A stretch of DNA of 35,697 nt from Acidobacteriota bacterium. Lineage in GTDB: Bacteria > Acidobacteriota > Blastocatellia > RBC074. The notes beneath the pieces were generated by a model. It saw only the letters and a program-made list of their open reading frames with translations, made no database searches and was not told where the DNA came from. The position numbers and the translations under genes were made by a program. Positions 4,752 through 17,148 of this stretch are shown in pieces; positions within the stretch are counted from its first letter, which is position 1; each line of letters opens with the position of its first letter. The stretch is taken from NCBI GenBank assembly GCA_016196035.1, contig JACPYM010000059.1, forward strand, positions 116,528 through 152,224, written 5' to 3'.

Positions 4752-5168
4752 ATGAATCAGCGTCTCACCAGCCTGGTCTGGCGGCGGGCTCGGCGCTGCT
4801 GCGAATACTGCCAAATGCCGCAAGAGTATGACGAGCCTCCTTTTCAAATTGACCACATCTTGGCGCGCAAACTTGGCGGCCTAACCATTGCGCGGAATCT
4901 GGCGCTGGCCTGTTTTTTCTGTAACAACCACAAAGGTCCGAACATCGCCGGCCGTGATCCGTTGACCGGACGAATTGTCCGACTCTTTCACCCGCGCCGC
5001 GATGTGTGGCGCGAGTATTTCCAATGGTCTGGTCCGCGTTTGGTAGGTCTCACGCCGAGCGCGCGAGCGACGATTGCTGTTTTGGAGCTCAATCTGCCGC
5101 ACCGCATGGCCTTGCGGGCGGCACTCATCGAAGAAGGCGTGTTTCCAACAGCCAGCACCGGCCATTGA
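4752..5168 (+). CDS. HNH endonuclease
   Basis: A 138-residue metal-dependent nuclease of the HNH superfamily. The N-terminal half carries the signature: a first zinc-binding pair CEYC, then QIDHILARKLGG containing the core Asp-His, then NLALACFFCNNHKG with the second cysteine pair and the Asn and His of the active site. The C-terminal half (HPRRDVWREYFQW and after) is typical of the compact bacterial HNH proteins often found as solitary or two-gene units in environmental genomes. It starts two bases after the small upstream gene and converges on the hydantoinase gene with a 13-base gap. No methyltransferase or defence partner is nearby, so the biological target is unknown. Confidence 0.92.
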   Translation: MNQRLTSLVWRRARRCCEYCQMPQEYDEPPFQIDHILARKLGGLTIARNLALACFFCNNHKGPNIAGRDPLTGRIVRLFHPRRDVWREYFQWSGPRLVGLTPSARATIAVLELNLPHRMALRAALIEEGVFPTASTGH

Positions 5169-5181
5169 ATGGCATGAAAAG

Positions 5182-6750
5182 TTAGGCTTCACGCGCCCCA
5201 TGCCCGCCGCCACCCGGCGTTTCAATCACCAACCGATCACCACAGCGTGCCTTGAGCGAAAACTTGCTAGGCAACTTCTTGCGCTTGCCGCCGTGCGCCT
5301 CGATCAATTCAGCTATGCCAACTTTGCCTGGCGCGCCGCCCTGCAAGCCATACGGCGCAAACTTACGGCGATCCGCCAACAGCGAGACTTGCGCATCGGC
5401 CAGCAATTCGATTTCCCGAATCGTGCCATCGCCGCCACGCTGCTTGCCTGCGCCGCCCGAACCGCGCCGGATGGCGTAGCGGCGCACGCGCAACGGGTAG
5501 GCGTATTCCAGCGCTTCAATCGGCGTGTTCAGCGAATTGGTCATGTGTGTATGCACCGCCGAGATGCCGTCGGCATTAGGCCGCGCGCCCATCCCGCCAC
5601 AAACCGTTTCGTAATAGGCGAACTCGCGCCCCAAGCGCGCATCCCAACCGCCAATGGTCAGATTGTTCATCGTGCCTTGCGAAGCGGCGGGAATCAGGTG
5701 CGGTGCGGCTTGCGCCAAGGCTTTCAACAACACATCCACGATGCGTTGCGAAGTCTCGACATTGCCGCCCGCCACCGGCGCGGGCGGCAGCGCGTTGACG
5801 ATGGTGCCGGCGGGCGCGATGACTTCGAGCGGTTCCAGAATGCCCGCACTGGCCGGGACATCGCCCGGAATCAGACAACGAAATACATAATAAGCCGCCG
5901 ACACGGTGATCGCTTCGACGGCGTTGACGGGGCCGCGCACTTGCGGCGCGCTGCCCGTGAAATCAATGCGCGCGCGTTCGCCGCGAATTGTCACCTTGAC
6001 TGTGATGCGTACCGGCTCGTCAATCTCGCCGTCGTTATCAAGAAAGTCTTCGGCCTCGTATACGCCATCCGGCAGCAGTGCCAGCGTGCGCCGCATCAGC
6101 CGCGCGGCGTATTCGACCAAGTGTCCGGCATAGGCATCGGCCTCTTTGAACCCATAGCGCGCGACGATTTCGTGCAAACGGTCGCTGCCCACGCGCAACG
6201 CGCCCAACTGCGCGGCAAAATCGCCCTCGCGTTCGTCACGCCCACGCACATTGGCCAACAGAAAATTCCAAACCTCCTGCTCTAACTGCCCGCCGCGGAC
6301 GATGCGCAACGGCGGAATGCGAATGCCTTCCTGATAAATCTCCGTCGCCGCGCCCATCGAACCCGGCGTTGCGCCGCCGATGTCGGCGTGATGTGCACGA
6401 TTAGCGACATAAAAGAGCAGTTGGCTGGCTTCAGAGAAAACCGGCGCGACCATCGTTACATCCGGCAGATGTGTGCCGCCTGCGTAGGGGTCATTCAGGA
6501 TCACGACATCGCCCGGTTGCATCGCGCAATGCTCGATGGCGGCTTTGACGGACATTGGCATCGAACCCAGATGAACGGGCATGTGATCGCCCTGCGCGAT
6601 GATGCGCCCGCGCCGGTCAAATACGGCGCACGAATAATCGCGGCGCTCTTTGATGTTCGGGGAAAAGGCCGTGCGGCGCAGGCTCACGCCCATCTCTTCG
6701 GCGACTGAGGTGTAGAGCGAGCGATAAATTTCGAGGGTGATGGAATCCAT
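5182..6750 (-). CDS. hyuB: Hydantoinase B / oxoprolinase family protein
   Basis: A 522-residue protein of the HyuB (PF02538) family: N-methylhydantoinase, acetophenone carboxylase and 5-oxoprolinase beta-type subunits, which open cyclic amide or related substrates with ATP. The N-terminus (ITLEIYRSLYTSVAEEMG), the block RRDYSCAVFDRRGRIIAQGD, the metal-binding-like DPYAGGTHLPD and the C-terminal TPGGGGHG tail are all family hallmarks, and the length is as expected. HyuB normally works with HyuA, usually encoded immediately next to it; no hyuA lies in this window. The 3' end converges on the HNH gene and the 5' end borders a CAGT-rich repeat. There is no clear Shine-Dalgarno sequence before the ATG. 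The exact substrate is unknown. Confidence 0.93.
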   Translation of the reverse strand: MDSITLEIYRSLYTSVAEEMGVSLRRTAFSPNIKERRDYSCAVFDRRGRIIAQGDHMPVHLGSMPMSVKAAIEHCAMQPGDVVILNDPYAGGTHLPDVTMVAPVFSEASQLLFYVANRAHHADIGGATPGSMGAATEIYQEGIRIPPLRIVRGGQLEQEVWNFLLANVRGRDEREGDFAAQLGALRVGSDRLHEIVARYGFKEADAYAGHLVEYAARLMRRTLALLPDGVYEAEDFLDNDGEIDEPVRITVKVTIRGERARIDFTGSAPQVRGPVNAVEAITVSAAYYVFRCLIPGDVPASAGILEPLEVIAPAGTIVNALPPAPVAGGNVETSQRIVDVLLKALAQAAPHLIPAASQGTMNNLTIGGWDARLGREFAYYETVCGGMGARPNADGISAVHTHMTNSLNTPIEALEYAYPLRVRRYAIRRGSGGAGKQRGGDGTIREIELLADAQVSLLADRRKFAPYGLQGGAPGKVGIAELIEAHGGKRKKLPSKFSLKARCGDRLVIETPGGGGHGAREA

Positions 6751-6752
6751 GA

Positions 6753-6795
6753 GCAGTGGTCAGTAGTCAGTGGTCAGTGATCACTAACCACTACT
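6753..6795. repeat. CAGT-rich short repeat with imperfect palindrome
   Basis: The motif (A)GT(G/A)GTC recurs as CAGTGGT, CAGTAGT, CAGTGGT and CAGTGATCAC, and the right half (about 6769-6792) is a near-perfect palindrome centred on GATC. It fills the gap between the hydantoinase start and the HEAT-repeat stop, and could terminate transcripts or form a hairpin in the hyuB leader. Confidence 0.6.
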
Positions 6796-7708
6796 TCAGT
6801 TTCGCCAATGCCGCCTTCGCCGTTTGCTGCACGCTGGAATCGCGGTCGCCGAGCGCGGTTTGTTCCAGCGCGGCGCGGGCTTCGGCGGTGTGCCATTCGC
6901 CCAGCCAGTAAGCGGCTTTGCGGCGATAGTCGGGGAAGTTGTGTTGTTGCAAGATGCCGATCAGTTCATGCACGCCATTGCGCGTATGCTGCAATTCCAC
7001 GGCGGTCGCTTCGGCGATTTGGCGCAGCTTCAGGTCGTCGTGATCCACGAATTCAAACAGGAAGCTGATGGCCTTGCGCGAAAAACGCACGTCGCGCATT
7101 TGGTTGACGACCAGAATGCCGAAACAGCGCGCCCGCATATCGCCTTCGTCGGTGACTTTGACATTGCCTGTATTCACCAGCACGTTCAGCGTCGCGTTGC
7201 GCGCGCGATGCACGTTGAACGAACCGAGCGACAAACCCAGAGCCGCTCGCACCCGCCAATCCTTGTCCGCCAACAACGCCTCGATCAGCGGATCAATCGC
7301 GTCTTGATTGCCGAGTTTGCCTAACGCCTCGACCGCCGCCACGCGCAACGTGGCATCGGCGTCTTGCAAGAGGCCCAGCAAGGTGTCGTTGACGCGTGGA
7401 TCACAACTCTTGGTTAATGCCTGCACGGCCTCAATGCGTTTTTTGGCATCGGTGCTTTTCAATTCGGCGGTAGCTTTGGCGATGGCCGTTGTATTGGCAG
7501 CGTTCTCGGCGACAGCTTCGCATTGCTCGTAAAGCGTAGGAGTTTTGCTGAATTGCGCCAAGGCGGCGCTGGAACAAAGCAGCGCCAAGAGGCCGCTCAA
7601 CAAAAAGGGGCGCAGCCCCAAAAGAAAGGTGCCGCGAACCGGAAGGTCAGAGACCTTCCGCACATCAGGCGGCATAGCCGCATACAAACGCGAGACGAAA
7701 TACTTCAC
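6791..7708 (-). CDS. Exported HEAT-repeat protein
   Basis: An armadillo/HEAT-type solenoid protein likely exported or membrane-anchored. The GTG at 7708 is favoured because GGAG lies about five bases upstream; an ATG at 7675 and a TTG at 7741 are in frame. A hydrophobic stretch (LLGLRPFLLSGLLALLCSSAALAQ) looks like a Sec signal with cleavage after ALA. The mature part repeats helical HEAT units of about 30 residues, for example KRIEAVQALTKS, LRVAAVEALGKLG and WRVRAALGLSLGS, and ends with SSVQQTAKAALAKLK. Such solenoids bind proteins and have no catalytic residues. It follows the 460-residue unknown gene by about 40 bases on the same strand, so they probably form one operon and the two products may interact. 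Confidence 0.85.
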   Translation of the reverse strand: MKYFVSRLYAAMPPDVRKVSDLPVRGTFLLGLRPFLLSGLLALLCSSAALAQFSKTPTLYEQCEAVAENAANTTAIAKATAELKSTDAKKRIEAVQALTKSCDPRVNDTLLGLLQDADATLRVAAVEALGKLGNQDAIDPLIEALLADKDWRVRAALGLSLGSFNVHRARNATLNVLVNTGNVKVTDEGDMRARCFGILVVNQMRDVRFSRKAISFLFEFVDHDDLKLRQIAEATAVELQHTRNGVHELIGILQQHNFPDYRRKAAYWLGEWHTAEARAALEQTALGDRDSSVQQTAKAALAKLK

Positions 7709-7747
7709 TAGAACTCCAATCTTGAAACTGCCAACTGCCAACCGGCT

Positions 7748-9130
7748 TCACGCTACCGTGTCTGGATTCTCCGGCGTCAACAGCTTCATCGCGCGCGTTG
7801 CGTGGCCCAGCGCGATGACGATGTCGCTGATGAATTTGTCGCTGAGCGTGCGCCGCAACACCGCCCAATCCAGCGCGCGCAATTTGACGATGCTGTCATA
7901 CATCGCTTGCTCGCCCGCCTGAATGCGTTGCTCTTGCGCGGGCGTGAACGTCACCAACTTGTGCAGCTTGGCGTAATTGATTGATTCAAACGCATGACCC
8001 AACAGTTTGACGCGCGCCCGTTGTTTGAAGGCTTCCAGGGCAATCGCTGGCGAGCCTTGCTTTTGCGCCGCAGCCTTGCTCTCAGCCTCATCGTATTCCT
8101 GGTCGCTGGCGAGCGCGTCGCCTTTCAGCCGATACGTCGCCAGATCGAGCGCCTGTTTCAACCGTTGCGGCACCTCGTTGTTCGTGTAGCCGTGCTGCCA
8201 GCACGACAAAAAGCCATAGACCGAATGCAGCCCGAAGCAACTGTACTCTTTGATCTTTTCGCGGAAGTTCACCGGCGCCGTCTCACCGCGCAGCAACGCC
8301 GCCTGGCCCAACGCACAATTGCTTTCGTATTCGGCCAAGCTGCGATCAAGCACCGCCGCCAGCTCGATCTTTTCGCCGTAAGCATTCGTCCACGTCGCTT
8401 GCGCGGGCGGCAGCAGAATCGAAAACGCGATCAACCCCCACGGCAAATGTTCGTGCACCAATTCGCCCCGCCCGTGCGCCAGCGTCGAAACCGGGTCATA
8501 GCGGAATTGGCGGTCATCGAATTTGAACAGATCGCTCGGATCACAACGGAATAACTGCCGCGCGCTCTCACTCACATCGCGCAGCGTGTAGCGATTCGCG
8601 CCTGCCACGACCGGCTGATCCAGGCTCACGCCCGCTTCCAAAAAGGTTTTCAGAAAGCTGTTCTCGTGCACCTCGGCATCGCGTTTGAAAAACACGAAGC
8701 GTTTCCCGTTGACCTCTTTGTCGGCGGCGTAGCGCGTACACAGATGTTCAACCGCGTTCGTGCCGTCCGCCAGCTTGAAGCCTTTACCAAACGCCCGCAC
8801 CGCGTGGATCAGCGCCGACGCATTGCCCAAATCGCGCGCGTAATGCTCGACCATCTCATTGATCGCCCGCAACGCATTGGCCTGATCGGCCGGCAACGTC
8901 ACCGGCGACAGATTCTTGCCCGCCGAACGCGGCGCGGTCGAAGCGAAACTCTGCGGCTTGGCTTCGTCAAACCAACCCGCGTTGTAGGCAGCGGCAGCAC
9001 CAACGCCAGCGGCGGCGAGCGCACCTACGCCCAGCAGCATGAAATTGCGGCGGCCCGGTTCGGGCGGCGTAGTCGCAGAAGTGGCAGTGTTTTTGAGTTC
9101 TTGTTTCGGTTGTTTGGTCTTCTTACTCAT
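7748..9130 (-). CDS. Conserved-looking protein of unknown function with Tat-like signal
   Basis: A 460-residue protein that I do not recognise. The N-terminus is a charged, Lys/Thr-rich tail followed by PGRRNFMLLGVGALAAAGVGAAAAY, a twin-arginine-like motif plus hydrophobic helix, so it is probably exported by Tat or anchored in the membrane. The remaining ~400 residues have no membrane segments and appear largely alpha-helical. His- and Cys-containing segments stand out (ELVHEHLPWGLIAF, EYSCFGLHSVYGFLSCWQHG) and might bind metal or form an active site; that is only a suggestion. It is the first gene of a probable operon with the HEAT-repeat protein and has a good promoter at 9196-9224. There is no strong Shine-Dalgarno sequence. 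The function remains open. Confidence 0.85.
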   Translation of the reverse strand: MSKKTKQPKQELKNTATSATTPPEPGRRNFMLLGVGALAAAGVGAAAAYNAGWFDEAKPQSFASTAPRSAGKNLSPVTLPADQANALRAINEMVEHYARDLGNASALIHAVRAFGKGFKLADGTNAVEHLCTRYAADKEVNGKRFVFFKRDAEVHENSFLKTFLEAGVSLDQPVVAGANRYTLRDVSESARQLFRCDPSDLFKFDDRQFRYDPVSTLAHGRGELVHEHLPWGLIAFSILLPPAQATWTNAYGEKIELAAVLDRSLAEYESNCALGQAALLRGETAPVNFREKIKEYSCFGLHSVYGFLSCWQHGYTNNEVPQRLKQALDLATYRLKGDALASDQEYDEAESKAAAQKQGSPAIALEAFKQRARVKLLGHAFESINYAKLHKLVTFTPAQEQRIQAGEQAMYDSIVKLRALDWAVLRRTLSDKFISDIVIALGHATRAMKLLTPENPDTVA

Positions 9131-9263: not shown

Positions 9264-9368
9264 ACAGTACGGGGAGCGTGAGCGACCTGAACCTTGGCAA
9301 GCCAGGCACAAAAGGGAAGCCAAACCGCCAAACACCGAGGCTCAGGTCGCTCACGCTCCCCGTACTGT
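9264..9368. repeat. Inverted repeat overlapping the 3' end of the Roc-TIR gene
   Basis: A 27-base arm at 9264-9290 (ACAGTACGGGGAGCGTGAGC and on) is exactly reverse-complementary to 9342-9368, with a 51-base loop. The right arm contains the stop codon and the last codons of the LRR-Roc-COR-TIR gene. The rest lies in the intergenic space and could terminate that transcript. Confidence 0.9.
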
Positions 9369-11825
9369 ATCAACGCGTTTGCGCATCTGCCCCACCGCCT
9401 TCTTAATCCCTTCCTCCACCAACGCCCACGCCTCATCGCGCGGGGTGAATGCCGAAACCAGTTCGCCTTTGCGCGGCAGGTTCTCCAACGCGGCAAAATC
9501 TTCTTGATCCCAAGAGCATTTCGACAACAACACGGGCAACACGACCGCTCGTTTGTCGCGCACCATTCTCATCGCCAAAGGACGCTCTTTATCCGTGATG
9601 TAATCCGAAGCCAAAAAATTGCGGCTGACCATAAACAAAATAATCCGCGCTTCGGCCAAGCGCGCCTGAATCGTCTCGTCCCAGTCTTCGCCGGGCACGA
9701 GGTCGGTGTCGCGCCAGGGCGTGATGTAGCCGCGCCGCGCCAGCACTTTCAGGCTGGGCAGCAACTGCTTCACCTTTTGCTCGTCGGCGTGCGCGTAGCA
9801 GATAAACAGCGGCAACGGATTCTCTTTGGGCGCGCTGGCTTCGATGCTCTCGACTTCGCGCAGCGTGTCTTCGACCGGCACCATCACCGTTTGGCCGTCG
9901 GCGCGGCGCTCGGCACGGGCGGTTTCGTGGCGTTGGGACGCTTCGCGCAAGAGTTCCAGTTCCGTCCAGGCGCCGGGCTGGGCTTCGCTTTCGACGAAGG
10001 TGCGCACGGGCAGTTTGTCGTTGAGTACGCGCATTTCGGCGAGGATGAATTCCGCCAGCCAGACGCGTTCGTCGGCGTTTTCGCCCACCACATAAACATC
10101 GGTGAAGCGGCCTTCGTGATCGCCGCGCACCAGCGCCCGCGCCTGACCACGCGCCAGCACGACGCCGCGCAACCAGCGCGCTTGCTGTTCGCTCAAGGTG
10201 TGCGAACGGACGATGAAACGCGGCAACAGCCCCGGCGGGCGCACGTCGTCGTAGCGGAATTGAATCCGCCGCGCCCCGCCGCCCGTGAATTCGGTCAACG
10301 CGCCCGGCTGATTCGCATTCAGCAGCGCCGGTACCAGATAAAGCCCTTCGGCGCTCTCGACCGGGAAACACAACTCGAACTTTTCCATCAGCGCCAGTAG
10401 GAAAGCGTGCATGTGCGCTGGATAGTTGTGGGCATCGGGCAGCGCCTGGGCGAAGTCGCTGAGACGCATCTCGCCGTTGGTCTCGTGTTTTTGCAACCAG
10501 CGTAAGATCGTGTAAATGCCATCCACCAGCCAGCGCGGTTTCAGTACGCTAGTGTCGCGCAACCGCGTGTCATCGCGGTAATTCAACGCGATGCCCAGGC
10601 AATCCAGAATCGTCGCTAAAATCTCTTGCTCCTCCGCCTCTGTCACGCCCAACCCGGCGCAGATTTGGCGGTAGCCGGCAAAGCTCACGAAGCTGTCTGC
10701 CATCTCTTCCAGATGCGTGCGCACACGCGCCCAGGTCGGCGCAATTTTTTGCCGCACGCTTTCCATCTCACCGGCCAGTTGGCCGAGCCATTCGCCCAGT
10801 GGCGCGATGCCTTCGCGCGGGTCGCAATCCGTCCGCACTACGGCTTTCACTTCCGGGTATTTCTCTTGCAGGAAGTATTCATCCACGGTGAACGGGGACG
10901 CCTTGATCTGGTTGAGCGCGATGACCACAGGAGAGCCTTTGCCGTATGTGCGAATCAATCGTAGCCAGTATTCGGCCTCTTGCATGGGCCGACCCTGCCG
11001 TCCGCTGAGCACGATCAGATAAATGCTGCGTTCAGAGAAAAAGAACTGATGTGTCTGATGCAAAAACTCCTGACCACCAAAATCCCAGACGTGCGCTGTG
11101 ATAGTGGATTCGCCAGTCGTTAGCGGCAATTGATGGCGTTCGATGCCGGGCGTCTCCGGCTCGTGCTTTTTGTGTTTAGCGCCCCGCAACGCCTTGCTCA
11201 GCGAAGTCTTGCCCACGCGCCCGTGGCCCACCAGCAATAGCTTCACCTCGTCCAATGGTTTCGTGTGCTGTTGATGCTGACCAAAATAAAACGCCAGTAT
11301 CGCGCGCGGATCGGTGGCCTGGGCATTATAGTAATTTCTGGTGAACTGCCAGGTCGGACCCAGAATCTTCTGCGGCAGCCAAAGACCAGGGTTATCGTGG
11401 AGGAAAAGCTGCTTCAGTGCTTTCAACTGGCCTAGCGACTCTGGCAGCGCCTTTAGTTGGTTGTCGTTGAGGAACAGATTCTGCAACTGTGTGAGTTCGC
11501 CCAGCGACTTTGGCAGCACCGTCAATCGATTGCCGGAGAGGTAGAGCGACTGCAATTGATGGAGTTGGCTCAATGACTCCGGCAGTGCCGTCAGTTGGTT
11601 AAGCGAGAGGTTGAGCGACACTAAATTCTGGAACTGGCTCAACTGCTCTGGTAGCGTCGTCAGCTTATTGTTAGAGAGGTCGAGTTCTTCTAACCGCGTT
11701 AGTTGGCCCAGCGACTCCGGCAGTTCGGTGAGTCCCATATTGCTGAGGCCGAGGTTTTTCTTTCCCGAACGGTACGCCGTTTCAATCCTCTGTTCCGCTC
11801 TCAGATACGCTTCGTCTCGTGCCAT
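9351..11825 (-). CDS. LRR-Roc-COR-TIR protein (bacterial Roco GTPase with TIR domain)
   Basis: An 824-residue multidomain signalling protein. ATG 11825 is preferred over GTG 11831 because AAAGG is well spaced only for the ATG. Residues about 25-155 hold five 23-residue leucine-rich repeats of the pattern LxxLxxLxxLxLsxNxLtxLPes. The Roc GTPase domain follows with P-loop GHGRVGKTS (200-208), the G3 motif WDFGGQE (247-253) and G4 motif NQIK (305-308). A COR dimerisation region spans about 365-620. The C-terminus (about 673-800) is a TIR domain beginning LFICYAHADEQKV, with a conserved-position glutamate in SDYITDKERPLA that may be the NADase residue. By family knowledge LRRs sense, Roc-COR switches and TIR either scaffolds or cleaves NAD+. 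A role in phage defence or regulated cell death is inference. The last codons derive from an inverted repeat. Confidence 0.93.
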   Translation of the reverse strand: MARDEAYLRAEQRIETAYRSGKKNLGLSNMGLTELPESLGQLTRLEELDLSNNKLTTLPEQLSQFQNLVSLNLSLNQLTALPESLSQLHQLQSLYLSGNRLTVLPKSLGELTQLQNLFLNDNQLKALPESLGQLKALKQLFLHDNPGLWLPQKILGPTWQFTRNYYNAQATDPRAILAFYFGQHQQHTKPLDEVKLLLVGHGRVGKTSLSKALRGAKHKKHEPETPGIERHQLPLTTGESTITAHVWDFGGQEFLHQTHQFFFSERSIYLIVLSGRQGRPMQEAEYWLRLIRTYGKGSPVVIALNQIKASPFTVDEYFLQEKYPEVKAVVRTDCDPREGIAPLGEWLGQLAGEMESVRQKIAPTWARVRTHLEEMADSFVSFAGYRQICAGLGVTEAEEQEILATILDCLGIALNYRDDTRLRDTSVLKPRWLVDGIYTILRWLQKHETNGEMRLSDFAQALPDAHNYPAHMHAFLLALMEKFELCFPVESAEGLYLVPALLNANQPGALTEFTGGGARRIQFRYDDVRPPGLLPRFIVRSHTLSEQQARWLRGVVLARGQARALVRGDHEGRFTDVYVVGENADERVWLAEFILAEMRVLNDKLPVRTFVESEAQPGAWTELELLREASQRHETARAERRADGQTVMVPVEDTLREVESIEASAPKENPLPLFICYAHADEQKVKQLLPSLKVLARRGYITPWRDTDLVPGEDWDETIQARLAEARIILFMVSRNFLASDYITDKERPLAMRMVRDKRAVVLPVLLSKCSWDQEDFAALENLPRKGELVSAFTPRDEAWALVEEGIKKAVGQMRKRVDTVRGA

Positions 11826-11881
11826 CGCCACTGCCTTTCACTTGGGTTGAAGTTTGTGCGTAATCAGGAAAACGGGCGCAA

Positions 11882-12003
11882 CCTGGGTACGCATCGCTTC
11901 CAGCGTGCGGTCTCGGCAACAGACGTATGGATGCTGAAAGCGAACCCTCGGCCTCAATTCGTCCGACGCCAAGCCCGCACGCTGGAAGCGATGCGTACCC
12001 AGG
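11882..12003 (+). repeat. REP-like palindrome, copy 1 (downstream of RAYT gene)
   Basis: A 122-base element whose 29-base ends (11882-11910 and 11975-12003) are perfect inverted repeats, starting CCTGGGTACGCATCGCTTCC. Its unpaired centre matches that of the copy at 12689-12811 in the same orientation. It ends two bases before the RAYT stop codon and separates that gene from the LRR-Roc gene. Confidence 0.9.
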
Positions 12004-12004
12004 G

Positions 12005-12631
12005 TTAGCCAGTCTGGCTACGTCGTCGCGCGCTACTCCAGCGCCAGTCTTCCGGCTTTTCGCAAAGCCCTGCCTTGACCGGATTGTTTTCAATGTAGGC
12101 AATGGCATTGCGGTAATGTTGCTCGTTGCGGATGAACCGGTCGAATGGCTCGCGCTCCCAAAACTTGCCGGTACGCCCCAGCAGCTTGTTGCACTGGTTG
12201 GCCGTGAAGCTTTTCCAGGAAAAACTGATTTCACTCATGTCGAAGCCCGGCTTCGGCGTAAAAAGCGTGTGCACGTGATTGGGCATGACGCACCAAGCGT
12301 GCAGGGCATACCGTTCACCATCGAAATGTAACAAGGACTTCTCCACCTCCTCTGCCAACCGGTCATCACGCAGAAAGCAGGCACCGTAACCGCTATCGAG
12401 GTAATCCTGAATCCGCTTGCGCCGCTCAAGGTCGGCTTCCTTCTCTGGTAGCGTTTTCAGTTCCTCGCGCCAGCGCGCCAACACCTGCTGCGGTAACGCA
12501 TCGAAGAGATGAAAACTGAGGTGCTGCGTCGCAACATCGCCATCGAAATGCGGAAAGTAGCCGCGTGAATACCAGCCGTCAGGCGAATCCTTTTTCGCCA
12601 CGACTAAACGGCCTTTGAAGAACTTTGGCAT
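12005..12631 (-). CDS. REP-associated tyrosine transposase (RAYT, Y1_Tnp family)
   Basis: A 208-residue single-strand DNA transposase of the IS200/IS605-related RAYT group, which nicks at palindromic REP sequences through a phosphotyrosine intermediate. ATG 12631 is chosen because GGAGG lies about eight bases upstream; the longer in-frame extension has no ribosome site. The HUH motif is MPNHVH in AWCVMPNHVHTLFTP. The nucleophile region is the expected RFIRNEQHYRNAIAYIENNP block with conserved Tyr residues, followed by VKAGLC and WRWSS. Typical RAYTs share this length and motif order. Two palindromes flank the gene within 2 and 57 bases, the hallmark context. The gene appears intact, so the element may still be active. 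Confidence 0.95.
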   Translation of the reverse strand: MPKFFKGRLVVAKKDSPDGWYSRGYFPHFDGDVATQHLSFHLFDALPQQVLARWREELKTLPEKEADLERRKRIQDYLDSGYGACFLRDDRLAEEVEKSLLHFDGERYALHAWCVMPNHVHTLFTPKPGFDMSEISFSWKSFTANQCNKLLGRTGKFWEREPFDRFIRNEQHYRNAIAYIENNPVKAGLCEKPEDWRWSSARRRSQTG

Positions 12632-12688
12632 TGTGTCCTCCGTTACTCGCCAACTTGCACAGCGACACATTGAGACTCTCGGCACGAC

Positions 12689-12811
12689 CCTGGGTACGCA
12701 TCGCTTCCAGCGTGCGGTCTCGGCAGCAGACGGGTGGATGCTGAAAGAGAACCCTCCGGCATCAATTTATCTGCCGCCGAGACCGCACGCTGGAAGCGAT
12801 GCGTACCCAGG
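12689..12811 (+). repeat. REP-like palindrome, copy 2 (upstream of RAYT gene)
   Basis: A 123-base element with 36-base perfect inverted ends (12689-12724 and 12776-12811) around a 51-base centre. It matches copy 1 in order and orientation. The longer perfect stem suggests copy 1 has decayed in its inner arms. It ends four bases before the stop of the PLP enzyme gene. Confidence 0.9.
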
Positions 12812-12815
12812 TTGT

Positions 12816-14045
12816 TCAATCCCCATACCGCCCCACCGTTCGCCACACCTCCACCACCCGCTCGCCGCGCGTGCAATAGAGCCGGTCGTACAGGTTCACG
12901 TTCGGATCGCAGTGCGGCACGATCAGTTCGACGCGGTCGCCGACTTTGAACGCGCGGCTGGGCTGGTTGAAGGTCAGGATGCCGTGTTCGTCGCCGCCGT
13001 AACCCATCGTCACGCCGGTCACGCCTTTGAGTTCGGGCAGGTGCTTGGGCTTGTCCGAGGCGAAGGCCTTGATGCCCGCGTCGGTCGTCGCGTGGTCGTC
13101 GTAGCTCTGGCTGATGATCGTGCCCAGCACCGTCAGCGAGGGCGCGAAGTCTTCGTAAACCGCCCCGCCGCGCCCGCCAATCGAGCGGTACTCGACATCC
13201 ATAAACACATACGAACCGCATTGCAGTTCGGTCATCCCGCTTAGCTCCGGGTCAATGTTGTAGGTGCCCGTGCTGCCGCCGGACATGATCTCCAAGGGCA
13301 GGCCGCGCCGTTTCAATTCAGCAAAGGTTTCGAGCACTGGCGTCATCACCTTGGCCGAATGCGCCTGCCGGGCGGTAAAGGTGTTGACGTGCGCCGACGG
13401 CCCCGAATAGCCGTGGATGCCACGCAGGCGCAGGTTCGGCAGCTTGGCAATCTGTTCAGCCAGCGCGAGGGCGCGTTCGCCCGCCGGGATGCCGGTGCGG
13501 CGTCCGCCGGGATCAACGTCAAGCACGAGGTTGAGCTTCAATTTGGCACTGGCCGCCGCGTCGTTGAGTTGTTTAGCGTGATCGAGATTGTCTACGGCAG
13601 ACAGCGTATCGGGCGCGAGCCGCGTCAGTTTCAGCAAGCGTTCGATCTTGGGTTTGCCGACCAATTCAGTAGTGATGAGCAAACCGCGCAAGCCGGCGGC
13701 GGCAAAGGCTTCGGCCTCGCGGATGGTGGCGGCGCACAGGCCGATGGCTCCCGCTTGCATCTGGCGGCGCGCGATCTCTACGCATTTGTGCGTCTTGCCG
13801 TGCGGGCGCAGATTGATCCTGGCGGCCTTGGCGTGCGCGGCCATCTTCGCCAGATTGCTTTCGAGCGCGTCCAGGTCGAGCAACAACGCGGGCGTGACCA
13901 GATCGGCCTTGGTCAGCGTCTTGCCGTTGGTCAGGCGCGCGTCAACTTCGGCGGGCGTGTAGCCGGTTGTTTTTGTGCGCAAAATGGTAGGGGCGGCGAC
14001 TAGGCCGAGCCCGTTGCGTAGGATGGTGCGGCGCGAAGTTTTCAT
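12816..14045 (-). CDS. D-threonine aldolase / D-serine dehydratase-like PLP enzyme
   Basis: A 409-residue fold-type III PLP enzyme (alanine racemase N-domain plus the D-Ser dehydratase-like C-terminal domain), expected to act on D-threonine, D-serine or another beta-hydroxy-D-amino acid. ATG 14045 follows AAAGGAG by eight bases; a longer start lacks one. A Tat-like leader (KTSRRTILRNGLGLVAAP) predicts export, unusual for this family but common in this type of genome. The PLP lysine is Lys84 in RPHGKTHK. The ring-phosphate region is in SGGSTGTYN, and the C-terminal VPHCDPNVN carries the His-x-Cys-like metal-binding pattern of D-serine dehydratase relatives. No neighbour suggests a pathway. Activity class is confident; the substrate is not. 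Confidence 0.92.
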   Translation of the reverse strand: MKTSRRTILRNGLGLVAAPTILRTKTTGYTPAEVDARLTNGKTLTKADLVTPALLLDLDALESNLAKMAAHAKAARINLRPHGKTHKCVEIARRQMQAGAIGLCAATIREAEAFAAAGLRGLLITTELVGKPKIERLLKLTRLAPDTLSAVDNLDHAKQLNDAAASAKLKLNLVLDVDPGGRRTGIPAGERALALAEQIAKLPNLRLRGIHGYSGPSAHVNTFTARQAHSAKVMTPVLETFAELKRRGLPLEIMSGGSTGTYNIDPELSGMTELQCGSYVFMDVEYRSIGGRGGAVYEDFAPSLTVLGTIISQSYDDHATTDAGIKAFASDKPKHLPELKGVTGVTMGYGGDEHGILTFNQPSRAFKVGDRVELIVPHCDPNVNLYDRLYCTRGERVVEVWRTVGRYGD

Positions 14046-14082
14046 CAGTGTGGCTCCTTTGGATGAGATGCGTAGCACAGGC

Positions 14083-14112
14083 ATCAAAACGCAGGTTGGC
14101 GCAGAGTGTCAA
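14083..14112 (-). promoter_or_regulatory. Probable sigma70-type promoter for the PLP enzyme
   Basis: On the minus strand a perfect TTGACA (14107-14112) is followed after 18 bases by TTTGAT (14083-14088), four of six matches to the -10 consensus. It would give a leader of about 30 bases with the AAAGGAG ribosome site. Confidence 0.45.
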
Positions 14113-14649: not shown

Positions 14650-17148
14650 ATGTTCCGAATCGCTTCTTCGCTCAGCGCCGTAGCGCTCAGCACCTTGCTC
14701 ATAGTGCAAATGACCTTCGCGCAAAACACAATACCACTGCCCACCGCTGACCCGTCTGCGGTCGGGATGTCGGCCCAGCATCTGGCTTACATTGATCAAG
14801 CCGTCACCGCCGAAATCGCACGCAAACAATTGCCCGGCGCGGTCGTGCTGGTCGGACGGCAGGGCAAGGTCGTGTGGCGCAAGGCGTATGGCAATCGCGC
14901 GCTCGAACCAGCGCCCGAAGTGATGACAGCGGACACGATGTTTGACTTGGCTTCGCTGACGAAGATCGTGGCGACGGCAACTTCGGTGATGCTTTTGGTC
15001 GAACGCGGGATGGTGCGGCTGGGCGATCCGGTGGCGCGGTACATCCCCGAATTCGCCGCGAATGGTAAACAAAACATCACGGTCGAACAGTTGCTGATTC
15101 ATCGTTCGGGGCTGATCGCTGACAACGACATCAAGGATTACGAGCAAGGCCCGGCGCAGGCGATGTTGAATATCTGGAAGCTCGCGCCGCTGAATGCGCC
15201 AGGCACGAAGTTCATCTATTCGGACGTCAATTTCATCACGCTGGCCGAATTGGTCAAACGCGTGAGCGGCAAACCGGTGGATCAATTCGCCGCCGAAAAC
15301 ATCTACCACCCGCTGGGGATGAAGGATACGGGCTTCAATCCTGCCGCGAGTTTGCGCCCGCGCATCGCACCGACGGAAAAGCGCGGCGGCAATGTGATTG
15401 TGCCGAGTACAGGCGAAAAGACTGCCGGGGACGAACGCTGGATGCGCGGCGAAGTACACGATCCACGCTCCTATTTGCTGGGCGGCGTCGCGGGTCACGC
15501 GGGCCTGTTTTCGACGGCAGATGATTTGGCGATCTATTGCCAGATGATGCTCAATCGCGGCGAATATCAGGGGCAAAGAATTTTAAGCCCGCTGACCGTC
15601 GCACGGATGACGCAGCCACGCGATTCCGGCGGCAATGGCGGCGAAGGGCAGTGGCGCGCGTTGGGCTGGGATTATTACAGCAGCTTTTCGGCTAATCGCG
15701 GCGACCTCTTTCCGGTGGGCAGTTTCGGGCACACAGGTTTTACCGGCACGGGCTTGTGGCTCGATCCGGCCAGCGAGACGTTTGTCGTATTCCTGAGCAA
15801 TCGCGTGCATCCACGGCTGGATGCGGATGTGAACAAGCGGGCGGATGTGAGTTCGTTGCGTGCGCGCGTGGCGTCCATTGTCGCGGCTTCGATCTTGAAC
15901 CCTCCTGATAACACAATTGATATAGATCGCCAGATACGCGAGCGCGGGCGACAGCGCTTAAGTGTCCTTGGTGGTCCGTCCTGGTTTGGCTCAAGATTTT
16001 TTGGTGTGCCGCTGTCGGACTCGAACACGCTGAATGGCATTGATGTACTCGAGAAAAACAGTTTCACCCAACTCAAAGGCAAACGCATTGGCCTCATCAC
16101 CAACCACACGGGCCGCGATCGCGATGGCAACAGCACGATTGACCTGCTGGCGAATGCGCCGGGCGTCAAACTGGTCGCGCTCTTCTCGCCCGAACACGGC
16201 ATTCGCGGCGTGATGGATGAGAAGGTGACGGACTCGAAAGACGAAAAGACGGGCTTGCCGATTTACAGCCTGTACGGCGAGACGCGCAAACCTACGCCAC
16301 AGATGTTGCAGGGGCTGGATGCGCTGGTCTTTGACATCCAGGACATCGGCGCGCGTTTTTACACCTATCCCTCAACGATGGGCTTGGCGATGGAAGCCGC
16401 CGCGCAGCAAAAGCTGAAATTCATCGTGCTCGACCGCCTCAATCCGATTAACGGCGTGGATGTCGAAGGGCCGCTGGCCGATGCCGACAAGCTCTCGTTC
16501 ATCGCGCATCACACGCTTCCCATTCGTCACGGCATGACCGTGGGCGAGTTGGCGCAGTTGTTCAACCAAGAGAAAAACATCAATGCTGATCTGCAAATCA
16601 TCCGTGTCGAAAACTGGCGGCGCGAGCAATGGTTCGACGAAACGGGGCTGAGTTGGGTCAACCCTTCGCCGAATATGCGCAGCCTGACCCAAGCGACCTT
16701 GTATCCGGGTGTTTGTCTGCTGGAACCAACGAACGTTTCGGTCGGGCGCGGCACCAACACGCCGTTTGAACTCATCGGCGCGCCGTGGATTGACGGGCGC
16801 AAGCTGGCGGCGGCCTTGAATGCGGCCAACCTGCCCGGTGTGCGCTTTGTGCCGTTGCGCTTCAAGCCCACGGCCAGCGTGCATAAAGACGCCGATTGCG
16901 GCGGCATCAATCTGATCATCACGAACCGCGAAGTGTTTGAACCGGTGCTGACTGGATTGGAATTGATCGCGCAGTTGCACAAGCTCTATCCGCGTGAATT
17001 CGAGTTGAACAAGGTGCTGCGCTTGCTGGTCAATCAACAGGCGCTGGATGCGCTCGCCAAAGGGTCGGATGGGCGCGCGCTGAAACAGGTTTATGAACGC
17101 GACCTCGAAAGTTTCCGTGCGTTGCGGGCGCGGTATCTGCTATATTGA
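14650..17148 (+). CDS. Serine hydrolase (AmlB/beta-lactamase-like) fused to NamZ exo-beta-N-acetylmuramidase domain
   Basis: An 832-residue exported fusion protein. A Sec signal (MFRIASSLSAVALSTLLIVQMTFA) leads into a class C beta-lactamase-type domain (about 30-420) with the SxxK pair Ser102-Lys105 in ASLTK, a YxN-equivalent YSD and an HTG motif in place of KTG (FGHTGFTG). After a linker of about 35 residues comes a complete DUF1343/NamZ (GH171) domain (about 460-832) with KRIGLITNHTGRDRDG, LFSPEHGIRG, FDIQDIGARFYTY and NPSPNMRS. In Bacillus subtilis namZ and amlB are separate neighbouring genes of the MurNAc recovery cluster; NamZ releases terminal MurNAc from peptidoglycan. Here they are one polypeptide. 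A GHL10 glycosidase gene follows on the same strand. The hydrolase domain's substrate is unknown. Confidence 0.93.
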   Translation: MFRIASSLSAVALSTLLIVQMTFAQNTIPLPTADPSAVGMSAQHLAYIDQAVTAEIARKQLPGAVVLVGRQGKVVWRKAYGNRALEPAPEVMTADTMFDLASLTKIVATATSVMLLVERGMVRLGDPVARYIPEFAANGKQNITVEQLLIHRSGLIADNDIKDYEQGPAQAMLNIWKLAPLNAPGTKFIYSDVNFITLAELVKRVSGKPVDQFAAENIYHPLGMKDTGFNPAASLRPRIAPTEKRGGNVIVPSTGEKTAGDERWMRGEVHDPRSYLLGGVAGHAGLFSTADDLAIYCQMMLNRGEYQGQRILSPLTVARMTQPRDSGGNGGEGQWRALGWDYYSSFSANRGDLFPVGSFGHTGFTGTGLWLDPASETFVVFLSNRVHPRLDADVNKRADVSSLRARVASIVAASILNPPDNTIDIDRQIRERGRQRLSVLGGPSWFGSRFFGVPLSDSNTLNGIDVLEKNSFTQLKGKRIGLITNHTGRDRDGNSTIDLLANAPGVKLVALFSPEHGIRGVMDEKVTDSKDEKTGLPIYSLYGETRKPTPQMLQGLDALVFDIQDIGARFYTYPSTMGLAMEAAAQQKLKFIVLDRLNPINGVDVEGPLADADKLSFIAHHTLPIRHGMTVGELAQLFNQEKNINADLQIIRVENWRREQWFDETGLSWVNPSPNMRSLTQATLYPGVCLLEPTNVSVGRGTNTPFELIGAPWIDGRKLAAALNAANLPGVRFVPLRFKPTASVHKDADCGGINLIITNREVFEPVLTGLELIAQLHKLYPREFELNKVLRLLVNQQALDALAKGSDGRALKQVYERDLESFRALRARYLLY

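Follow-up and report, generated by a model that had tools for sequence, protein, structure and literature searches.

An intact LRR-Roc-COR-TIR protein of an Acidobacteriota bacterium with altered base-recognition loops, a probable conflict or arrest switch that uses NAD

Overview

We analyzed a stretch of 35,697 nucleotides (the window) from an Acidobacteriota bacterium (GenBank assembly GCA_016196035.1, contig JACPYM010000059.1, positions 116,528 to 152,224 of the forward strand), focusing on P0001, a minus-strand gene for a protein of 824 amino acids. P0001 is a real, intact, one-gene protein composed of leucine-rich repeats (LRRs), a Roc G-domain, a COR region, and a C-terminal TIR domain, and it is of an already predicted kind. 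What sets it apart, as judged from aligned sequences, is an alteration of the base-recognition loops of Roc that extends across its clade. Given its conserved candidate catalytic residue, its TIR fold, and its patchy distribution, P0001 most likely serves as a switch in conflict or arrest and uses NAD. We put at roughly 55% the probability that it acts as a single-gene intracellular receptor-effector, in which the LRRs would be the sensor, Roc-COR the switch, and TIR the enzyme that arrests the cell or signals.

Gene and domain architecture of P0001

The open reading frame (ORF) of P0001 spans positions 9351 to 11831 on the minus strand, with the ATG at 11825, and its LRRs, Roc, COR-A, COR-B, and TIR_2 matches all lie above the Pfam cut-off and far beyond chance. 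An AlphaFold2 model that was given 34 homologues as input has a mean pLDDT of 88 and a pTM of 0.69. For the Roc-COR part of this model, structural comparison gave MbRoco2 (4wnr) at Z = 36.2, with an rmsd of 2.7 across 317 residues, and CtRoco (3dpu) at Z = 24.6. COR directly follows Roc, and a P-loop and a DxxGQ-type G3 motif are present, which places P0001 in the Roco family. A first-pass annotation, made from the letters of the window alone, had proposed this domain order together with five 23-residue LRRs, and on both counts it was borne out. At the DNA level, five 33-nt copies recur in register along the LRR part with a period of exactly 69 nt, and a sixth, partial unit can be read by eye. 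The features are as follows, all on the minus strand.

9351 to 11825, minus: LRR-Roc-COR-TIR gene P0001, 824 amino acids (ORF and Pfam)
11370 to 11759, minus: leucine-rich repeats, residues 23 to 152, five units of 23 residues and part of a sixth (LRR_8, E = 1.9e-20; five DNA copies, 69-nt spacing)
10761 to 11264, minus: Roc G-domain, residues 188 to 355 (Pfam Roc, residues 195 to 307, E = 1.9e-21; match to MbRoco2 4wnr)
11205 to 11228, minus: G1/P-loop GHGRVGKT, G200 to T207 (motif reading)
11067 to 11084, minus: G3 motif DFGGQE, D248 to E253 (motif reading)
10998 to 11000, minus: R276, at the site of the trans-acting arginine of Rocos (alignment)
10902 to 10913, minus: G4 position, N305-Q-I-K308, with Lys in place of the specificity Asp (alignment)
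10824 to 10832, minus: G5 position, T332-D333-C334, usual Ser replaced by Asp (alignment)
10320 to 10736, minus: COR-A, residues 364 to 502 (PF16095, E = 5.6e-34)
9873 to 10265, minus: COR-B, residues 521 to 651 (PF25497, E = 1.3e-10)
9426 to 9815, minus: TIR domain, residues 671 to 800 (TIR_2, residues 674 to 777, E = 2.3e-15; PADLOC ThsB, residues 673 to 816, E = 6e-31; TIR-only model)
9585 to 9587, minus: E747, candidate catalytic glutamate of TIR (alignment and conservation)

The Roc domain lacks a canonical G4 motif

The P-loop and the G3 motif of P0001 are intact, as the first-pass annotation had read them. Its further reading of an intact G4, which underlay the description of the protein as GTP-regulated, is wrong: where CtRoco and MbRoco2 align with NKID, P0001 has NQIK, so that Lys308 occupies the place of the guanine-specificity Asp of N-K-x-D. 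The G5 position is altered as well, reading T-D333-C(-D) against I-S-C in both CtRoco and MbRoco2, and a Ser-type G5 is thus missing. R276, whose position we take to be that of the trans-acting arginine of Rocos (presumably R543 of CtRoco), is invariant across a 34-row Roco alignment and absent from some distant Rocos. Because the G4 Asp is replaced, the label “GTPase” is, for P0001, based on homology and not on motifs. The loops from G4 to G5 are variable among Roc domains according to a review of the Roco family (PMC6337361). We found no description of the combined G4/G5 change in the accessible portion of that review or in the open-licence literature searched, largely at listing level.

An exchange of acids between G4 and G5 in a clade of Roco proteins

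In the first eight TIR-bearing Rocos that were aligned, the G4 Asp was absent throughout (0/8) and the G5 Asp always present (8/8). To place this pattern on a tree, we used a set of 75 Roco rows (74 different) drawn from a genome-contig scan, which contributed 44 loci, from the family and phylum genomes, from further copies in the genomes behind those loci, and from three phylum searches. Three loci without a Roc region (L087, L078, and L097) and three duplicate genes (L113, L124, and L127, equal to L089, L085, and L014) were dropped before the 75-row tree, which contains one gene twice (L082 = L126). A more careful 70-row tree followed the removal of the divergent rows L088, L082, L126, L083, and L091. 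The G4 and G5 columns were taken out before tree building, and the broken TIR-Roco L057 was excluded from the Roc tallies.

P0001 falls into a clade of 21 Rocos with an SH-aLRT value of 96 in the 75-row tree and with 100/99 in the 70-row tree. At G5, all 21 members have an acidic residue, which is Asp in 20 and Glu in one; 16 of the members lack the G4 acid, the remaining five (L030, L086, L089, L118, and L106) having both. Outside the clade, the G4 acid is kept in 48 of 54 Rocos. The six exceptions include L122 and L092, which combine a non-acid G4 with Asp in the G5 column; L112, also outside the clade, has acids at both positions. The other exceptions are L115, L109, and L116 (Q, Q, and G at G4, N at G5) and L088 (K at G4, A at G5). 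All of these run counter to a simple rule of exchange; the alignment of the distant rows is doubtful. The correlation between G5 gain and G4 loss lacks statistical demonstration: an independent-pairs test on starred branches gave a median p of 1, its pairs dividing 4 to 5 between the two directions. This test has no power, since the acid at G5 arose a single time in the clade. A Fisher test takes no account of relatedness, and we do not count its value as evidence. Within the clade, G4 changed four times, and the five members with both acids can be read either as ancestral or as having regained the G4 acid. A link between G4 loss and the TIR effector was considered and rejected, given that L039 has a TIR domain with NKID and that L031, L036, L049, and L119 show the loss without a TIR match.

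As a tentative explanation, which we hold to be possible but doubtful, base recognition may have been rebuilt in this mostly TIR-armed clade, with the G5 Asp (S to D) taking over and the G4 Asp then becoming dispensable. Such a takeover seems plausible because in Ras the G5 Ser adjoins the G4 Asp. If true, the switch might retain GTP via the new contact or accept another nucleotide, a TIR suicide switch might be adjusted to a nucleotide pool that is perturbed during infection, and the exchange would represent a natural experiment in the change of G-domain specificity.

The TIR domain and its candidate catalytic glutamate

Modeled alone, the TIR domain reached a pLDDT of 89 and a pTM of 0.85. 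This model matches RPPT-TIR 7xoz with Z = 15.3, and known NADase TIRs with Z values of 14.6 (RUN1), 14.4 (RPP1), 14.1 (SPARTA), 13.4 (AbTir), and 12.9 to 13.3 (SARM1). Sequence and helix placement make E747 a candidate for the catalytic-glutamate position of TIR NADases. It lies inside helix 741-756 of the P0001 model and aligns, gap-free nearby in a weak match (E = 0.019), with residue 84 in chain 7qqk of TIR-SAVED, a residue which we take to be the catalytic residue of TIR-SAVED; P0001 also shares the S-to-E spacing of this chain. In SfSTING, SARM1, and other TIRs, the catalytic glutamate is located on helix C (PMC9402430). In L039, the glutamate follows the conserved aromatic residue at W+4; in P0001, Y742 and E747 are one residue further apart.

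A glutamate occupies this column in all 15 TIR-bearing members of the clade, whose TIR domains are 25 to 74% identical to that of the window gene and which contain 3 to 16 LRRs by a strict motif. Of these members, the window gene and seven more have their TIR assigned by Pfam, a paralogue in the same genome by TIR_2, and the other six by alignment alone.

Patchy inheritance and exchange of effectors

The inheritance of P0001 is not housekeeping-like but patchy, apparently cross-phylum, and effector-swapping. A full-length copy was found in none of the 10 other genomes of the family (73 to 98% complete), one of which, G010, has two distant Rocos without a recognized TIR domain. The gene next to P0001 (7751 to 9130), by comparison, is present in all 10 of them, and the gene at 12819 to 14084 in 8. 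In the phylum of the window, COR-A occurs in 4 of 297 genomes, its own included. The nearest relative of P0001 is 66% identical and comes from a Verrucomicrobia metagenome-assembled genome (MAG), followed by one of 53% from a Schlesneria MAG (best segments). At a threshold of E = 1e-60, with the centre genomes counted and with scoring limited to the leading two or three candidates of each genome, relatives were retrieved from the phyla of G014 (a Planctomyces record; 9 of 392 genomes), G011 (titled Verrucomicrobia; 8 of 387 genomes), and G013 (a Thermoanaerobaculia record; 3 of 296 genomes). A single Roc-COR clade brings together records whose titles name Acidobacteriota, Verrucomicrobiota, Planctomycetota, and Pseudomonadota. 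The genome of P0001 itself encodes a second LRR-Roc-COR-TIR protein (C31:34624-37071) with 40% identity to the first. No confirmed relative of the P0001 protein or of the TIR alignment was found in viral contigs.

Synteny breaks at P0001. The order of hydantoinase B, the HEAT gene, and the 7751 gene is kept in four of six regions from relatives, the exceptions being L162, where the contig ends, and L165, which has no HEAT gene within 3 kb. In these regions, none of the genes from the other side of the window was found with this block. Given that the two genes flanking P0001 sit on different contigs in the relatives retrieved, the break is all that is shown. In the window, the block (5182 to 9130) consists of hydantoinase B, a HEAT-repeat gene, and a gene with a weak match to a Tat signal, the last without a Pfam family above the cut-off.

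Effectors differ along the Roco tree. C termini were scanned for 20 out of 35 Rocos that did not belong to the first TIR set, and for 10 others. TIR is found in 15 of the 21 clade members, and CHAT in the member L031, near the lineage of the window. Outside the clade we detected CHAT (L041), PNP_UDP_1, which is nucleoside phosphorylase-like (L052), and TIR (L039); most other scanned C termini held nothing firm past COR-B. Kaur et al. 2021 (PMC8195603), in the part of the article available, predicted proteins with an LRR-AP-GTPase-COR-effector layout as counter-invader systems with at least 24 C-terminal effector domains, TIR among them, and several copies per genome. The different effectors that we observe on one LRR-Roc-COR chassis fit this prediction.

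Further observations concern other Rocos of the set. The distant Rocos L119 and L093 have similar C-terminal segments, that of L119 being without an effector family above the cut-off. There are apparent Roco expansions in G024 (Aminicenantes, L051; 29 matches) and G022 (Acidobacteriota, L060; 14 matches), some of these matches covering only LRR or TIR parts. In a Planctomycetaceae MAG (L057:10001-12154), a TIR-Roco extends over several frames with an in-frame TAA and is either broken or misassembled.

Genetic neighborhoods of TIR-Roco loci

We collected 140 genes within 8 kb of 14 TIR-Roco loci using a crude ORF caller; several contigs end near the gene, and four neighbors longer than 1,100 amino acids were excluded from the tallies. 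A blastp comparison among these 140 neighbors revealed no partner gene conserved across the 14 loci. The only cross-locus pair, DUF1501 in L128 and L028, was rejected as a conserved partner since it occurs in these two loci only, and is taken as chance. HEAT_2 matches two of the neighbors. The claim that P0001 has no adjacent partner stands in that none is recognized in the window, yet one related locus has a defense pair directly downstream.

Among the 87 nearest neighbors, PADLOC indicated a clear defense gene at 2 of the 14 loci. At L131 (G902:C10, 9169 to 14276), ptuA (E = 1e-72) and ptuB (E = 2.3e-40) of a Septu system start ∼48 bp downstream of the TIR-Roco gene on the same strand. At L042:621-6915, from a Planctomycetota MAG, the TIR-Roco gene faces a gene with a SIR2_2-nSTAND5-TPR layout, and two probable NAD-using effectors thus lie side by side. 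At L129, an SNF2/DpdE-like helicase is encoded 2.4 kb from the TIR-Roco gene, with one gene between them. A control set of 75 genes, from which L142 was excluded because it holds another TIR gene, contained one DRT reverse transcriptase, one HEAT-type match, and two candidate-family matches in PADLOC. These neighbor tallies rest on 25 of 170 families listed, and four neighbors carry, when scanned alone, 91, 45, 26, and 6 family matches, nearly filling the 170. The counts of defense neighbors are weak support and do not amount to enrichment. The first-pass annotation had also named vertical, housekeeping-like inheritance, with homologues never beside defense genes, as speaking against a conflict role; what we found is absence of a full-length copy from 10 family genomes, apparent spread across phyla, and clear defense genes at two loci.

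Proposed mechanism and competing explanations

In the mechanism that we consider most probable, the LRRs would bind a cue, such as a phage or stress product. This binding would shift the nucleotide state of Roc-COR and its dimer arrangement, by analogy with CtRoco, and the shift would release or gather the C-terminal TIR domains. The TIR domains, to judge from their conserved glutamate and their fold, could then cleave NAD+ to ADP-ribose or cyclic ADP-ribose, leading to arrest or signaling.

Several observations weigh against this scheme. On GTP, the compact dimer of CtRoco gives way to a monomer of open form, with the LRR swinging away by ∼135 degrees (PMC11052575), and TIR NADases are switched on by assembly, which is required for effectors such as SfSTING and TIR-SAVED (PMC9402430). 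A GTP form that is a monomer, opposed to an effector that is activated by assembly, puts the coupling between switch and effector in question. In the simplest joint model, release of the LRR would free the TIR domains to assemble; activation within the dimer is equally possible. The G4 motif, as read from the alignment, is degenerate. Against the TIR model, signaling TIRs score on a par with NADases (Z = 12.1 to 14.1; 14.1 for MAL, 14.0 for Hydra TRR-2, and 12.7 for MyD88). MAL, TRR-2, and MyD88 are not known to be enzymes, and the fold thus leaves the activity undecided. At 12 of the 14 loci there is no clear defense neighbor, and any PADLOC match was obtained for ∼7 of 87 neighbors versus up to 4 of 75 control genes. 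Finally, the GC3 of P0001 (0.72) is similar to that of its neighbors, for which reason a recent arrival is not indicated. The earlier picture of a one-gene sensor, switch, and effector consequently survives in part, upheld by the glutamate kept in 15 of 15 members, the TIR fold, and the non-housekeeping spread, and weakened by the lack of enrichment and the degenerate G4.

The best-placed alternative, which we regard as unlikely though worth keeping in view, is that the TIR domain makes cyclic ADP-ribose for a separate effector encoded elsewhere, as in Thoeris, in which case the gene would not be self-contained. The best PADLOC model for the TIR domain is indeed ThsB, the signal-making TIR of Thoeris, and the 9.6-Mb genome of the window contains 26 TIR_2 matches (25 above the cut-off), so that other parts of a network may exist. 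At L042 alone, the SIR2 part of the neighboring gene matches ThsA models (E = 1.2e-24). On the other hand, PADLOC gave no ThsA match among the nine further genes that were scanned in the window, the rest of the genome not having been searched for ThsA, and the 14 loci share no conserved neighbor.

Slightly less probable again is a role in non-defense signaling, with the Roco protein switching development, stress responses, or surface life in bacteria with large genomes and the TIR domain acting as effector or oligomerizing scaffold. The 12 loci without a clear defense neighbor would fit such a role, as would neighboring Pfam families that are mostly metabolic (among 25 of 116 families listed), but a gene that is rare, patchy within its family, and cross-phylum, with 3 to 16 LRRs and differing effectors, would be unusual for housekeeping signaling. 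A catalytically dead TIR serving as an assembly platform is very unlikely, since the fold match to MAL, TRR-2, and MyD88 and the longer Y742-E747 spacing are offset by a glutamate retained in every TIR-bearing member at TIR identities down to 25% and by the equal S-to-E spacing of the TIR-SAVED chain.

Other features of the window

The 3' end of P0001 overlaps a palindrome (9264 to 9368) with 34-nt arms that are 94% complementary, and its last five codons and TGA stop lie inside one arm. Similar copies (74 to 78%) are found in the same genome at L141, L009, and L142/L022. Given the position of the stop in the arm and these further copies, a REP-like element seemingly supplied the stop of P0001. 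Upstream, an IS200-like gene (Y1_Tnp, RAYT-like; 12005 to 12685, minus strand) lies between two 123-nt palindromic units that are 90% identical (11872 to 12814), the nearer of which starts 46 nt upstream of the P0001 start codon. The window further contains an ORF at 14650 to 17148 in which a beta-lactamase-family domain is fused with NamZ exo-muramidase N and C domains, and a small HNH-domain gene at 4752 to 5168 with a weak PtuB match (E = 1.7e-7).

Comparison with known systems

P0001 shares the Roc-COR fold, the P-loop, G3, and the arginine position with CtRoco of Chlorobium tepidum and MbRoco2 of Methanosarcina barkeri, but these two have NKID and ISC at G4 and G5, and no TIR match was seen in either. 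Human LRRK1 and LRRK2 share the LRR-Roc-COR core (Z up to 28.2) and differ in being eukaryotic and in having a kinase where P0001 has TIR. Thoeris ThsB, TIR-SAVED, SPARTA, and Cat1 have a TIR fold with the same Glu, ThsB being the closest in PADLOC, whereas their switch parts are the ThsA pair (Thoeris), SAVED, Argonaute (SPARTA), and CARF (Cat1) instead of Roc-COR.

The systems of Kaur et al. are closest in layout, with an N-terminal LRR, Roc (their AP-GTPase), COR, and a variable C-terminal effector; they differ in being a prediction that is, in the available part of PMC8195603, silent on G4 and G5, whereas the Roc of P0001 is without the G4 Asp and has a G5 Asp. We found no bench-tested bacterial LRR-Roc-COR-effector case in the open-licence literature, searched mainly at listing level, and a 2019 review describes the physiological role of bacterial Rocos as little known (PMC6337361, portion accessible). 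The brown-algal ROCO genes likewise have an LRR-Roc-COR layout and are proposed candidate immune receptors, but they are eukaryotic (PMC11378527, part available). Bacterial Rocos serve as models for LRRK2, and the Roc of P0001 is a relative of the switch of this Parkinson's protein. With a TIR domain that is probably enzymatic, NAD+ loss would provide a readable output, making Roco sensing directly testable.

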